From Anaerolineaceae bacterium (GTDB taxonomy: Bacteria; Chloroflexota; Anaerolineae; Aggregatilineales; Phototrophicaceae), in contig NZXX01000001.1 of the NCBI GenBank assembly GCA_002702065.1, forward strand, positions 1,054,001-1,118,000: a stretch of DNA of 64,000 bases. Direction: 5' to 3'. The notes beneath the pieces were generated by a model. It had not been told where the DNA came from. It ran no database searches and worked only from the letters and a program-made list of their open reading frames with translations. Below, in pieces: positions 49,261-54,914 of this stretch (its first letter is position 1; every line of letters starts with the position of its first letter). The position numbers were made by a program, and so were the translations under genes.

Positions 49261-49710
49261 TCAGCCGGAGGATTTGGGCGGCATCGCGGTCGGCTCTGGC
49301 AGTTCCATGGGCGGCGCATAGACCGGTTCGTAGGTCGTGGGGAACAGCATGGTGTTGACCTTGCCCCACTCATCATAGCCAATCAGCTTGAGGCTGGGGT
49401 CGTAACCGAGATAGCAGCTCACGCCAATGGTGCTGGGGCCGTAGGTGCCCATCCCTGCTTCGATATAGCCAGAGGTGCCGGTTTCGCAGGCGGCGGCCAG
49501 TGCGTCATCAATGGTGGCCTGCGAGACTTCCCACAGTGTTTCGCCCTGCATGTTAACCAGCCAGCAGCCATCTGCCTGCGTACAATACAGCGTGTCGCCG
49601 CCGAAGTGATGCACCTGGTTAATGCGCTCATCAGCCAGAACGGCCTGTAAAGACAAGAGCAGTAAGACCGTTGCAGCCAACGTATAAAGGGTCTTGCGTG
49701 TGATTTGCAT
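49261..49710 (-). CDS. Small secreted protein, copy 1 of a tandem duplication
   Basis: A 149-residue exported protein of unknown function. The signal peptide ends at VLADERI. The mature core (QVHHFGGDTLYCTQADGCWLV onward, about 105 residues) has three or four Cys and many aromatic residues. The tail is Pro-rich and ends MPPKSSG. The core is nearly identical to the neighbour at 49947-50378; signal peptides and tails differ. ATG 49710 gives the best spacing to GAGGA; ATG 49713 and an upstream start at 49767 are less likely. Confidence 0.75.
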   Translation of the reverse strand: MQITRKTLYTLAATVLLLLSLQAVLADERINQVHHFGGDTLYCTQADGCWLVNMQGETLWEVSQATIDDALAAACETGTSGYIEAGMGTYGPSTIGVSCYLGYDPSLKLIGYDEWGKVNTMLFPTTYEPVYAPPMELPEPTAMPPKSSG

Positions 49711-49887
49711 CATGTTCCTCGCGGTTTTTGAAAAGTTGATAAAGCATAGGTTTTTGATAACCGTCAACTTAGTATTAACGCATTAGGCTGGAAACGCCCT
49801 GAGAGATAATCCTAATTTTTCATAAAGAGATGTGCGTAGCATCGGTTGAATACTTGACCGGACACACCGAGCATACGGAGAAAATAA

Positions 49888-49946: not shown

Positions 49947-50378
49947 CTACCTGGGGCGTCGGGTTGGCACTGGCATTGGTTCCGCGTTATTCGGCGCATA
50001 CACAGGCTCGTAGGTCGTGGGGAACATCATGGTGTTGACCTTGCCCCACTCGTCATAGCCAATCAGCTTGAGGCTGGGGTCGTAACCGAGATAGCAGCTC
50101 ACGCCGATGGTGCTGGGGCCATAGGTGCCCATACCGGCTTCGATATAGCCTGAAGTACCGGTTTCGCAGGCGGTAGCCAGCGCGTCGTCGATAGTGGCCT
50201 GCGAGACTTCCCATAGTGTTTCGCCCTGCATGTTGACCAGCCAGCAGCCATCTGCCTGCGTACAATACAGCGTGTCGCCGCCGAAGTGATGCACCTGATT
50301 GATGCGCTCATCGGCCAATACAGCCTGGACAGCCATTACAATCAATACCAGAACGAACATGCGAATCATAAGTTTCAT
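49947..50378 (-). CDS. Small secreted protein, copy 2 of a tandem duplication
   Basis: A 143-residue exported protein with signal peptide (MIRMFVLVLIVMAVQAVLA) and the same mature core as copy 1. Over about 335 bases the two genes differ at roughly 26 positions by my count, mostly at third codon positions. The two proteins differ there at only a few residues, so selection has kept the sequence. The C-terminus ends VPTRRPR, unlike copy 1. AAAGAGG precedes ATG 50378. No known family is recognised. Confidence 0.75.
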   Translation of the reverse strand: MKLMIRMFVLVLIVMAVQAVLADERINQVHHFGGDTLYCTQADGCWLVNMQGETLWEVSQATIDDALATACETGTSGYIEAGMGTYGPSTIGVSCYLGYDPSLKLIGYDEWGKVNTMMFPTTYEPVYAPNNAEPMPVPTRRPR

Positions 50379-50555: not shown

Positions 50556-50867
50556 TCAGGTGGCGCGGTCCATAATTTTGCGGAACTTGTAACCGTAAAC
50601 GATCATGCCCTTACGACCCTCGGCAGTCAGTTTGCGCGTCACCATTTCAACGCGGTCACCGATTGCGACGGGGCCATCCATATCCGTTAACTGCGCCGTC
50701 ACCAGCGGCCCCTCATCCAATTGCACGAGTGCCAACGTGTAGGGGGCCTGTTCTTCAAAACCCTCAGGAGGTTCCCCCAGGGTGGTGTACGTATAGATCG
50801 ACCCTGTGCCGGCAAAGGCAAACGGCTGCGGTTGGAACTCGACCTGTCGTTTATTTGTGGGTTCCAT
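50556..50867 (-). CDS. DUF35 OB-fold protein (C-terminal half), acyl-CoA pathway partner
   Basis: A 103-residue protein matching the OB-fold part of DUF35/ChsH2 proteins: FAGTGSIYTYTTLGEPPEGFEEQAPYTLAL is split between strands of that fold, and VTRKLTAEGRKGMIVYGYKFR ends it. In archaea, DUF35 proteins bridge thiolase and HMG-CoA synthase so that acetoacetyl-CoA is channelled. HMG-CoA synthase lies 1.5 kb upstream on the same strand, which suggests the same role here (inference). The zinc-ribbon half is normally on the same chain but is a separate gene here, 9 bases upstream and in another frame. Confidence 0.82.
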   Translation of the reverse strand: MEPTNKRQVEFQPQPFAFAGTGSIYTYTTLGEPPEGFEEQAPYTLALVQLDEGPLVTAQLTDMDGPVAIGDRVEMVTRKLTAEGRKGMIVYGYKFRKIMDRAT

Positions 50868-50875
50868 GAATGAAC

Positions 50876-51055
50876 CTAGCGACCGACGGTGCTAACTTGG
50901 TCGTAGCTGTACGCTTCTTTATTCAGCACAACCTGTCCCTGTTCACTCTGGGTGATCAGGCGACGCGGCTGCAAACTGAACTGTCCATTCGGATTACGAA
51001 AACCTTCGAGACGGTAGCGTTGTGCGTTGAGGCGCCAGTGACGTGAAATCTGCAT
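50876..51055 (-). CDS. Small DUF35 N-terminal-like protein with lost zinc ligands
   Basis: A 59-residue protein starting at ATG 51055 behind AGGAG and ending at TAG 50878-50876. It opens ISRHWRLNAQRYRLEGFR, the usual start of DUF35 zinc-ribbon domains (helix, then RYRL-G). Where the family has Cys-x-x-Cys pairs, this protein reads RNPNGQF and ITQSEQG, and it contains no Cys at all. It therefore cannot bind zinc in the usual way. It lies 9 bases before the OB-fold gene and should be co-translated. The two proteins add up to the length of one normal DUF35 protein. Confidence 0.72.
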   Translation of the reverse strand: MQISRHWRLNAQRYRLEGFRNPNGQFSLQPRRLITQSEQGQVVLNKEAYSYDQVSTVGR

Positions 51056-51113
51056 TGTTGGTTACTCCTGATAGTGACTTCAAATTTGTGCGTCTTTGCA
51101 CGAAATTTCACTT

Positions 51114-51251: not shown

Positions 51252-52295
51252 CTATTGAAAGATCACACGCTTGCCCTGGCGTGCGGCTTCATATGCCGCC
51301 AGCACCATTTCAATGCAGATTCGCCCGGCTTCGGCAGTCGCCAGTGGTTCCTGAATTCCGCGCAGGTAATTGACCACCGCACGTGGCACAGCGCGGATTC
51401 GTTCGCCATGCTGCACCAGCGGAAAATCAAAATACTCCCAGTCGCCAACCGATGCGCGATAGACTTTGAGTGCGACTGCGCCCGGTGGGTTGGGTACATT
51501 GGAGGAGGGCACATCACCGTAGTTATGGATGATGCTTCCCTGATCGCCATAAATTTCAGTCGTGGCTTCTGCCGCCAGGGTGGTTGAACTGTTGAGCAGG
51601 ATTCCCATTTCCTTTTTGGCAAAGCGATAGATGGCGATGCCGTTATCATCGGGCGCGACATCGGTGACGATGTTGTCAATTTCGGCGATGACGCTGGTCG
51701 GTTTGCCCAGCATCCAATAGAACCAGTCGGCTGCGTGCGAGGCATCATCCATAAACATGCCCATGTTTTGTACGGGGTCAATGTGCCAGTTGCCGGGGTA
51801 GGCGAAGTTGGGGTTGAGCAACACCGGGATCGCATGCCGCCGCCGCACAATCGCCACATTGCCAACTGTACCTTCATCCAGCAGCGCTTTGATTTTCTGA
51901 TTAACCGGGTCGGCCCGCATTTGATAGCACAGGCTGAACTTCACACCATACTGCTTTACAGCGGCGATAATCGTGTCGCAGTCCTCCAGTGTCAGCGCCA
52001 TCGGCTTTTGCAGCAGAATATGTTTGCCTGCCTGGGCCGCTGCGACGGCATGTTCGGCGTGCTTGTTGGTCGGGCTGGTGATGAATACCGCGTCAATATC
52101 GTCACGTGCCAGCAGGTTGTCGAGGTCCGGCTCAAACGTGATGTTGTATTTGGCTGCGTTGGTTTCGCCACGTTCACGGTCATCATCCCAGGCTGCGACG
52201 ATCTGCGCGTCGTCGAAATCCTTGATGACATCGGCGTAGGCGTGAATGTGCGCATGTGCAAAGCTGATGATGCCCAGGCGGATGGGGGTGGTCAT
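51252..52295 (-). CDS. Gfo/Idh/MocA-family oxidoreductase
   Basis: A 347-residue NAD(P)-dependent enzyme. The N-terminal Rossmann fold opens IRLGIISFAHAHIHAYADV, and the usual EKP loop reads LQKPMALTLED, with Gln for Glu but the Lys kept. SPTNKHAEHAVAA precedes it. The C-terminal alpha/beta domain includes DDASHAADWFYWMLG. Typical substrates are sugars, inositols or their derivatives; nothing here fixes one. ATG 52295 follows GGAGG with 8-base spacing. It lies between HMG-CoA synthase and the DUF35 genes, an unusual place for a sugar-type dehydrogenase. Confidence 0.9.
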   Translation of the reverse strand: MTTPIRLGIISFAHAHIHAYADVIKDFDDAQIVAAWDDDRERGETNAAKYNITFEPDLDNLLARDDIDAVFITSPTNKHAEHAVAAAQAGKHILLQKPMALTLEDCDTIIAAVKQYGVKFSLCYQMRADPVNQKIKALLDEGTVGNVAIVRRRHAIPVLLNPNFAYPGNWHIDPVQNMGMFMDDASHAADWFYWMLGKPTSVIAEIDNIVTDVAPDDNGIAIYRFAKKEMGILLNSSTTLAAEATTEIYGDQGSIIHNYGDVPSSNVPNPPGAVALKVYRASVGDWEYFDFPLVQHGERIRAVPRAVVNYLRGIQEPLATAEAGRICIEMVLAAYEAARQGKRVIFQ

Positions 52296-52385
52296 GGTGG
52301 GGCCTCCTCTCAAAAATAAAACTGCCACATACTACCGCGTGACAGTTTTATCTGCTATTGAAGCTGGCTGGACTGCGAGGTTAGC

Positions 52386-53465
52386 TCAGTCCTTGAGTTT
52401 GCCCCGGTAGCGGCAGTAGGTGGCGTAATCGATCTCGGTCCGGCGGTTGATATAGTCCCGCGTGGAAGGGGCACGTTTCTGCACGTCCTTGATGCGATCC
52501 GTCAGCACCAGATCAAAGGCGTCCGAACCTGCGCCGCTGCCATAGCTGACCATCAGAATACGATCACCGGGCTGGGCAATATCGAGCACAGCGGTCAGGC
52601 CGATCATGCAGGAACCGGAATAGGTGTTGCCAATTTCACCCGCCAGCAGGCCCGTTTTGAATTGGTCCGGTTTGAAGCCCAGTGTTTGCGCGGCGCGGGA
52701 AGGGAACTTGACGTTCGGCTGGTGGAAGACCGCATACGTGTAATCTTCTGGCCTGGTACCCATCATATCCATCAGGTTTTGCGAACTGTTGAGCGTGTGA
52801 TGGAAATAGGCCGGTTCGCCCGTGAAGCGGTCACCATGACTGGGGTATTCCTCACCCTGCCGGCGCCAGAAATCCGGTGTGTCGGTGACGAAGCTGTAGC
52901 TGCCCTGATAGATCGCGCAGGCTTCATCCGCCGGGCCGAGCAGGAACGCCGCGCCGCCGGAAGCCGCCGTGTATTCCAGTGCGTCACCGGGACGACCCTG
53001 CGCCGTATCCATGCCGATGCTGAGGGTGTAACGCCCCATGCCGCTGCCGATAAAGCCAATTGACGCCTGCACCGCTTCAGTCCCGGCCTTGCAGGCAAAT
53101 TCCCAGTCGGCGGCCTGAATGTTGGGTGACGCGCCAATGCTCTCGGCGACGATGGTGCTGGTGGGCTTGACCGCGTAGGGGTGACTTTCGCTGCCCACCC
53201 ACACGGCGCGGATGAGTTTGGGGTCAACCCCGGCGCGGGCAACGGCGTTGCGGGCAGCCTCGATGGACATGGTGGTGACGTCTTCATCCAGCCCGGCGAC
53301 CGCTTTTTCCTTGACAGGACTGCCGCCCATGCTGTTGGTCCAGACGCGGGCGATTTCGTGCCCCGGCAGCCGGTAACGCGGGACGTATGCGCCGTAGCCG
53401 ATGATGCCGACCTGACGATCTGGCCGTAAGAGATTTGCTTGAGACTGAAAACCGTTCATTGTCAT
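52386..53465 (-). CDS. Hydroxymethylglutaryl-CoA synthase, archaeal type
   Basis: A 359-residue thiolase-fold enzyme that joins acetoacetyl-CoA and acetyl-CoA to HMG-CoA, the entry to the mevalonate pathway. [17 protein letters not shown] near residue 18, the catalytic Cys in [13 protein letters not shown], His in [16 protein letters not shown], and the terminal [11 protein letters not shown] are as in archaeal enzymes. The next gene upstream is HMG-CoA reductase, 65 bases away. A DUF35 pair, partner of this enzyme in archaea, lies downstream. Confidence 0.92.
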
Positions 53466-53530: not shown

Positions 53531-54826
53531 CTACAAAGTGAGTTCTGATACCAGTTCTTTGGCGCGTTCCAGCCGGATGTTGCCTTCTTCGATCATGGTC
53601 TGCACGATGCGCGGGATGAGGTCGCCCTCGGCCCCGGCAGCGACAGCCAGCTGCTTGGCGTGCAGGCTCATGTGGCCGCGCTGAATACCCTCGGTTGCCA
53701 GTGCCCGCATCGCGGCTAAGTTTTGCGCCAGCCCGACTGCGGCGATCACTTCGGCGAGCTGCTGCGCCGATTCGATGCCGAGAATTTTGAGCGCGACCTG
53801 GGCAGTCGGATGCACGCGGGTGGCGCCGCCGACGATGCCCACCGACAACGGAAGTTCGATGTTCCCGCGTAGATTGCCATCTGCGTCCTGCGACCAGTGG
53901 GTCAGGCTGGTATAAGCACCATTGCGCGCGGCGTAAGCGTGCGCCCCGGCTTCGATGGCACGCCAGTCATTGCCCGTGGCGATAATTACCGGATCAACGC
54001 CGTTCATAATGCCTTTGTTGTGGGTGGTCGCGCGATACGGGTCAATCTCAGCAAACACGCCTGCTTCGACAATCGACTGCACGACCGCTTCACCGGACAG
54101 CGTTTTGGTAGCCAGTTCTGCCGCCGGAATGACCCCTTCCGCCCGTGCTTTGCGCCGGTCCGTCAGGTTGCTGAGGATGCGCAGGTTCACCCGCCCGCCG
54201 GTCAGCGCTTCGATGTGCGGAGCCAGATGTTCCGCCGCCGTGTTAATGGCATTCGCGCCCATCGCGTCACGGCAGTCGTACAGCAGATGAACGACCAGCA
54301 TGGGGCCAATAGCAGTTTGCGGGAAGGGGCGCACTTCAATGTCGCGGGCGCCGCCACCCCGCTTGACGATGCTGCCGCCGACTTCATCGGCAATGTGCAA
54401 CAAGCGCGCCTTGTCATTCAGGACCGCGCGGCTGGCTGCGTTCAGGTCTGCGACATCCAATACCTGAATCTGACCGATCATGATGGGGTCGTCGCTGCTG
54501 GTCACAAAGCCCCCGCCAGCACGGAACAGGCGGGCCGCATTACTCACGGCTGCGACGACCGACGGTTCTTCGATGACCATCGGGATCAGATAATCGCGCT
54601 GGTTGATAAGAAAGTTGGTGGCGATACCCAGCGGCAGGCTGAACGTCCCGACGACGTTCTCAATCATGTGGTCGGCCTGTGCCGTTGATAGGCCAGCGTC
54701 GCCCACCAGAATGGCACGTTCGTCAGACGAAAGGCCAGCCCAGTCCGCGACCAGGGTCGCGCGCTCGTCGAGGCTGCGTTTGTAAAAACCGGAAATGCGT
54801 GATGTTGGCGTTTGTGTCGATGTCAT
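53531..54826 (-). CDS. mvaA: Hydroxymethylglutaryl-CoA reductase, class II
   Basis: Reduces HMG-CoA to mevalonate with NAD(P)H. It has 431 residues from ATG 54826; an in-frame TTG at 54856 lies in a promoter-like TTGACA and would add ten. Catalytic Glu is in VIEEPSVVAAVSNAA (about residue 86), Lys in HNKGIMNGVDPV, Asn/Asp in IATGNDWRAIEAG, and His in RGHMSLHAKQLA. The soluble form without membrane helices and these motifs fit class II. First gene of the mevalonate-linked cluster. A -10-like TACACT lies 6 bases before ATG 54826, so this transcript may also be leaderless. Confidence 0.94.
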   Translation of the reverse strand: MTSTQTPTSRISGFYKRSLDERATLVADWAGLSSDERAILVGDAGLSTAQADHMIENVVGTFSLPLGIATNFLINQRDYLIPMVIEEPSVVAAVSNAARLFRAGGGFVTSSDDPIMIGQIQVLDVADLNAASRAVLNDKARLLHIADEVGGSIVKRGGGARDIEVRPFPQTAIGPMLVVHLLYDCRDAMGANAINTAAEHLAPHIEALTGGRVNLRILSNLTDRRKARAEGVIPAAELATKTLSGEAVVQSIVEAGVFAEIDPYRATTHNKGIMNGVDPVIIATGNDWRAIEAGAHAYAARNGAYTSLTHWSQDADGNLRGNIELPLSVGIVGGATRVHPTAQVALKILGIESAQQLAEVIAAVGLAQNLAAMRALATEGIQRGHMSLHAKQLAVAAGAEGDLIPRIVQTMIEEGNIRLERAKELVSELTL

Positions 54827-54914
54827 GGGTCTAGTGTAACGGGTTGAACCTGTCAATTGCTATCAGATTGGTGAAAAACAGCACAAATTGCCCGATGGTT
54901 TGATGGGTAAATGG

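Follow-up and report, generated by a model that had tools for sequence, protein, structure and literature searches.

Gene layout at the mevalonate locus

The window, a 64,000-nucleotide stretch of an Anaerolineaceae bacterium genome, carries a mevalonate gene cluster on its minus strand in which the two DUF35 domains are encoded not as a single polypeptide but as two open reading frames (ORFs) in different frames, a layout that is conserved in relatives. The features of the locus are as follows.

53531–54856, minus strand: HMG-CoA reductase (NCBIfam TIGR00532, above cut-off)
52386–53465, minus strand: HMG-CoA synthase (HMGS), archaeal type (TIGR00748, 538 bits, above cut-off; catalytic Glu/Cys/His kept)
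51252–52328, minus strand: Gfo/Idh/MocA-family oxidoreductase (domain search), in the slot held by a pseudo-thiolase in most relatives
51065–51069, minus strand: AGGAG Shine-Dalgarno-like sequence, 9 bases 5' of the mini start codon
50876–51055, minus strand: N-terminal piece (the mini), 59 amino acids, a remnant of the zinc-ribbon domain of DUF35 that lacks Cys
50556–50867, minus strand: C-terminal piece (the OB piece), 103 amino acids, an OB-fold-only DUF35 (PF01796) without its own zinc ribbon

The original prediction described adjacent ORFs of 59 and 103 codons in different frames, beside genes for HMGS and HMG-CoA reductase, and all four are present. The gap from the mini stop codon to the OB start, given there as 9 bases, measures 8 (50868–50875). 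That account left out the oxidoreductase gene that separates HMGS from the two pieces.

The OB ORF scored 71.8 bits against PF01796 (cut-off 27.1), so the C-terminal OB-fold domain is present. The mini gave no Pfam or NCBIfam match in domain searches. As predicted, its translation has no cysteine at all: the N-terminal zinc ribbon with four Cys (PF12172) is absent, and the zinc knuckle has gone with its ligands. The mini core comprises residues 1–32 (MQISRHWRLNAQRYRLEGFRNPNGQFSLQPRR) and is followed by a variable tail with the C-terminal end -VGR (50879–50887).

Just downstream of the DUF35 pair, two near-identical small proteins are encoded in tandem (49261–49767 and 49947–50378, minus strand). 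Both are probably secreted; 49261–49767, the copy that was scanned, had no Pfam match.

Homology and conservation of the two pieces

The two pieces had been proposed to correspond together to one DUF35 protein, and each half is indeed collinear with the archaeal DUF35 chain 6esq_E. For the OB piece, the first profile match was to residues 42–128 of 6esq_E (E = 3.2e-24), the DUF35 chain of the thiolase/HMGS complex, and on this basis the piece is assigned as the C-terminal domain of that subunit. The mini required a less direct route. On its own, the window mini gave only a chance match in the PDB (E = 0.37), and the Cys-free rows alone matched 6esq_E at E = 0.42, which is non-significant by itself. 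When three zinc-bearing rows were included, the N-piece profile matched 6esq_E residues 3–40 at E = 9.4e-6. Zinc-bearing minis of related families pass the PF12172 cut-off of 23.2 (29.2 and 37.4 bits), and the Cys-free and zinc mini profiles align over residues 1–42 (hhalign, 98.9%, E = 1.9e-17). The homology of the mini to DUF35 therefore runs through these intermediates, by which it is identified, from profile comparison, as a homologue of the DUF35 N-terminal zinc-ribbon domain.

The mini and OB piece of a related locus (L039) were also modelled with AlphaFold as one chain, read through a single in-frame stop. The first ten structural matches to this model were all DUF35 proteins, led by 6esq_F (Z 12.0, 119 aligned residues, rmsd 4.4), and the top Foldseek matches of the related model were likewise all DUF35. 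The OB fold was predicted fairly confidently. Confidence in the mini part was low (pLDDT approximately 40–60) with the Cys-free rows alone or with full-length rows added, and we therefore make no claim about docking.

The comparison covered 81 loci: the window, and 80 relatives found by scanning named genomes. Almost all of the relatives are labelled Chloroflexota/Anaerolineae, with several labelled Aggregatilineales. Two related mevalonate loci carry other titles: L053 (JAHHHY010000001.1) is titled Pleurocapsa minor and L104 (JACVGT010000006.1) Theionarchaea archaeon. L053 groups deep within the Chloroflexota; the contig has probably been mislabelled or mis-binned. Of 61 related genomes, 57 carry the OB piece, most often as a frame of roughly 100 codons. 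It is present in every one of the 51 relatives that have HMGS, and the four genomes lacking it have no HMGS either. Nearly every family-level relative has a separate ORF of 48–62 codons upstream of the OB gene, and most of these start with MQISRHWRxNxxRYRLxG.

Selection on the mini was assessed from pN/pS between close pairs. Pooled values were 0.12 for the mini core (first 32 codons), 0.45 for the mini tail and 0.23 for the OB piece, the last inflated by one pair (L038/L041) that is misaligned for the OB piece. Core values fell between 0.01 and 0.07 in most pairs; the exception was the already degenerate L084–L087 group, at about 0.8 on few changes. The mini core is constrained at least as much as the OB piece.

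This constraint is visible at individual positions. In the Cys-free clade to which the window belongs, W7, R8, R13, Y14 and R15 are invariant in 49/49 sequences, L16 is kept in 48, R31 in 44 and G24 in 42. The mini has lost the four zinc ligands and retains the non-zinc invariant residues W7-R8, R13-Y14, L16, G18 and R31, and the residues conserved in Cys-free minis include those common to full-length DUF35. In the Cys-free minis a turn, NG as a rule, occupies the position of the first CxxC knuckle, and the variable tail has taken the place of the second.

Origin of the arrangement and the thiolase slot

Five states were found among the 81 loci: full-length zinc DUF35 alone (11 loci), zinc mini with full-length zinc DUF35 (7), zinc mini with an OB-only gene (6), Cys-free mini upstream of an OB-only gene (56, window included) and OB-only without a local mini (1, L066). 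The search of other Chloroflexota suggested by the original prediction recovers the same arrangement many times over. Beyond the order to which the window belongs, the mini profile matched, across the class, almost only frames of 130–160 codons, a length that fits full-length proteins.

On a tree of HMGS and OB sequences from 76 loci, a single gain accounts for the mini-gene (bootstrap/SH-aLRT 100/99; 100% of bootstrap trees). At least three changes are needed for the OB gene to lose its ribbon, and the mini cysteines were lost at least three times. No full-length ribbon with lost Cys was seen (0/18 loci). Parsimony with free reversals puts the zinc mini plus OB-only state at the base, so a duplication origin is favoured only if regain of the ribbon is held to be unlikely. 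A tree of the N-terminal domain, which has only 40 columns, does not group all minis (p-AU 0.03), a weak conflict.

The arrangement is probably not a simple gene split. Duplication of the ribbon, with subsequent loss from the full-length copy, explains the distribution of states no worse than simple fission does; the word "split" as first written is not supported. Simple fission is not needed as the sole origin, and fission followed by re-fusion could also have led to these states. The simplest reading of these sequences is likely to be that the ribbon was duplicated as a mini-gene, after which the OB gene repeatedly lost its own ribbon and the mini repeatedly lost its zinc ligands. A relative with one intact zinc-ribbon DUF35 at this site, which the original prediction had counted against itself, was found only as a distant full-length outgroup; it polarises the change and does not refute the reading.

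Among loci with a contig that spans the region, most have HMG-CoA reductase, HMGS, an archaeal-type thiolase-like gene, mini and OB in that order on one strand. All 42 aligned mini-gene loci have an operon thiolase in which the nucleophilic Cys is replaced by Asp/Glu and GHP by GNP (for example L039:7471-8613; loci L037–L070 and others). Among full-length-DUF35 loci, L083, L105 and L107 keep Cys/His/GHP and L101, L104 and L112 do not. The catalytic Glu, Cys and His of HMGS are kept in 74/74. Judged from these residues, the operon "thiolase" of the relatives is probably not a thiolase, and its annotation as "acetyl-CoA acetyltransferase" in their genomes is probably wrong in that sense and should be treated with caution.

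In the window the slot is filled by the Gfo/Idh/MocA gene, as it is in L036, L092, L093 and L114 (69–75% identity). No pseudo-thiolase was found anywhere in the window genome and no competent thiolase in the window operon. HMGS, with its catalytic residues intact, is encoded in one operon with the DUF35 pieces. Because the operon thiolase is altered or absent, archaeal-style channelling through an operon partner is not expected here, and the proposal that the pair is a variant of the scaffold joining thiolase to HMGS is not supported in the form given.

A proposed two-chain scaffold and its known relatives

On balance we favour the interpretation, drawn from sequence comparison, that the two polypeptides assemble in trans into one zinc-free DUF35 scaffold that now mainly serves HMGS. 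In solved relatives, the DUF35 protein uses its N-terminal helix and OB domain to wrap around a helix of its thiolase-fold partner (PMC12329534). The N-terminal segment of PhlB is buried between its partners (PMC6392133). Since the N-terminal helix is a main contact in known complexes, the mini is inferred to be an interface that acts in trans: it would supply the WR-x4-RY stretch and a short beta-hairpin, in place of the segment with which known DUF35 proteins pack against their thiolase-fold partner. Where the first zinc knuckle was, there would be a beta-turn, in most cases NG, so that metal would not be needed.

The proposed path would run from duplication of the ribbon as a mini-gene, through loss of the OB gene's ribbon, to loss of the mini cysteines. 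This path probably began after the operon's thiolase-fold subunit had lost thiolase catalysis, when a CoA site shared between thiolase and HMGS would no longer have been needed. In the window lineage the pseudo-thiolase has been lost as well. The scaffold most likely supports HMGS through its stability, oligomer or CoA groove, and acetoacetyl-CoA would come from a canonical thiolase encoded elsewhere, for which there is a candidate 553 kb away. On this interpretation the window pair probably works like the HMGS-facing half of the archaeal complex. A more specific version is put forward tentatively: a metal-free mini plus OB scaffold may hold HMGS, with the thiolase-fold subunit repurposed or, in the window's genus, replaced by the Gfo/Idh/MocA oxidoreductase. 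Against the trans-assembled scaffold stand the indirect homology of the mini to DUF35 and the ungrouped minis of the 40-column tree, the low-confidence mini part of the AlphaFold model, and signs that the mini may act independently.

Those signs point to a different role, which we consider rather unlikely: the mini could be an independent adaptor or regulator derived from the DUF35 N-terminal domain, binding a thiolase-fold or other partner through WR-x4-RY and its C-terminal end, and would then not be the missing half of the OB protein. In seven loci a zinc mini accompanies a complete zinc DUF35. Genome G003 has five dispersed mini copies, some in tandem (L184:2581-2948, L185:1139-1486, L186:2263-2409), all away from its OB gene, and none at its DUF35 locus, L066. 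Minis of all states, zinc-bearing and zinc-free, also share the C-terminal end -[AVT][AVGT][RSA]. It scores 2.32, whereas 2000 draws from the tail background reached no more than 1.18; it is missing from full-length DUF35 and may be a docking or stability signal. However, an OB-only gene never occurs in a genome without a mini (63/63 OB-only loci, one of them, L066, with its minis elsewhere), as complementation predicts, and the residues that the mini keeps are those invariant in full-length DUF35.

It is less probable still that the system works in the archaeal manner, with the two-piece scaffold joining HMGS to the distant thiolase and acetoacetyl-CoA handed over through a shared CoA site. 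The window genome does encode a canonical archaeal-type thiolase (G000:C7:550308-551465, 553 kb away) with Cys/His/His intact, which is separated from the pseudo-thiolases by a supported branch (99) and clusters with thiolases from operons in which DUF35 is fused. Three genomes with the oxidoreductase in the slot (G000, G001 and G019) have a canonical thiolase and no pseudo-thiolase. Nevertheless, G012 and G022 keep both a canonical thiolase and the operon pseudo-thiolase, so that the former can be present without the operon copy having been lost, and in the sampled mini-gene genomes the canonical thiolase was not found adjoining HMGS or DUF35.

It is highly improbable that the two ORFs stem from a frameshift error or a decaying pseudogene, or that programmed frameshifting or read-through of the stop makes one protein from them. 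In favour of such readings, both ORFs are short and lie next to each other, and at some loci they share a frame with one stop between them. Against them, the window's genus has the same adjacent pair in its other genome, dozens of independent genera have it too, purifying selection is strong, most inspected mini starts have an AGGAG-like site before them, and tandem copies occur elsewhere. Because gaps, relative frames and stop codons between mini and OB vary among these genera, a shared sequencing error, which had been named as fatal to the original prediction, is excluded, and programmed frameshifting or read-through is disfavoured and was rejected.

What endures of the original prediction is a two-part, zinc-free, conserved DUF35 in a bacterial mevalonate cluster, as distinct from a split gene or a thiolase/HMGS scaffold as written. 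If the trans-assembled reading is true, a metal-free trans scaffold would be a new architecture at the entry to the mevalonate pathway, one without channelling from thiolase to HMGS. A single bacterial order holds the intermediates (zinc mini with full-length protein, zinc mini with OB-only, zinc-free mini with OB-only), the full-length zinc protein occurs in the order's relatives, and the same genome series shows a partner subunit losing thiolase catalytic residues. With this natural series one can test directly what purpose the zinc ribbon serves, which interface segment is essential, and why HMGS keeps a scaffold without thiolase hand-over.

No split or zinc-free DUF35 in Chloroflexota was found in the literature (open-licence papers). 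The founding structure paper described the two-domain layout as conserved in all homologues (PMC2954200), and the DUF35 proteins solved by 2019 all bound zinc at an equivalent site (PMC6996347). In that founding structure, SSO2064 (PDB: 3IRB), the conserved Arg60 lines a groove (PMC2954200); from our alignment it appears to be kept here as R31, but SSO2064 is a two-domain single chain with zinc. CtShy DUF35, solved with the aldolase CtSal (PDB: 9MYR), resembles the window pair in its altered zinc site and has the N-terminal helix and OB domain wrapped around a partner helix (PMC12329534), yet it still binds zinc (Cys3His1) and has both domains in one chain. PhlB of the PhlABC acyltransferase (PDB: 5M3K) likewise sits between thiolase-fold and HMGS-fold proteins, one of which lacks its family's catalytic residues (PMC6392133); it is a single chain with zinc, and there it is the HMGS-like PhlA that lost catalysis, whereas here it is the thiolase-like subunit.

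The closest comparison is with the archaeal complex 6ESQ, which the OB piece matches best in sequence and fold and the N-piece family matches best by profile, and here too HMGS is encoded alongside. In 6ESQ one DUF35 chain carries a Cys4 zinc ribbon and partners an active thiolase, whereas here there are two chains, no zinc ligands, and an operon thiolase that is absent (window) or catalytically altered (relatives). The window pair lies outside DUF35 in the strict two-domain, zinc-binding sense and outside the thiolase/HMGS/DUF35 complex as defined in archaea; with two chains, no zinc and an altered partner set, it is a new form of DUF35.
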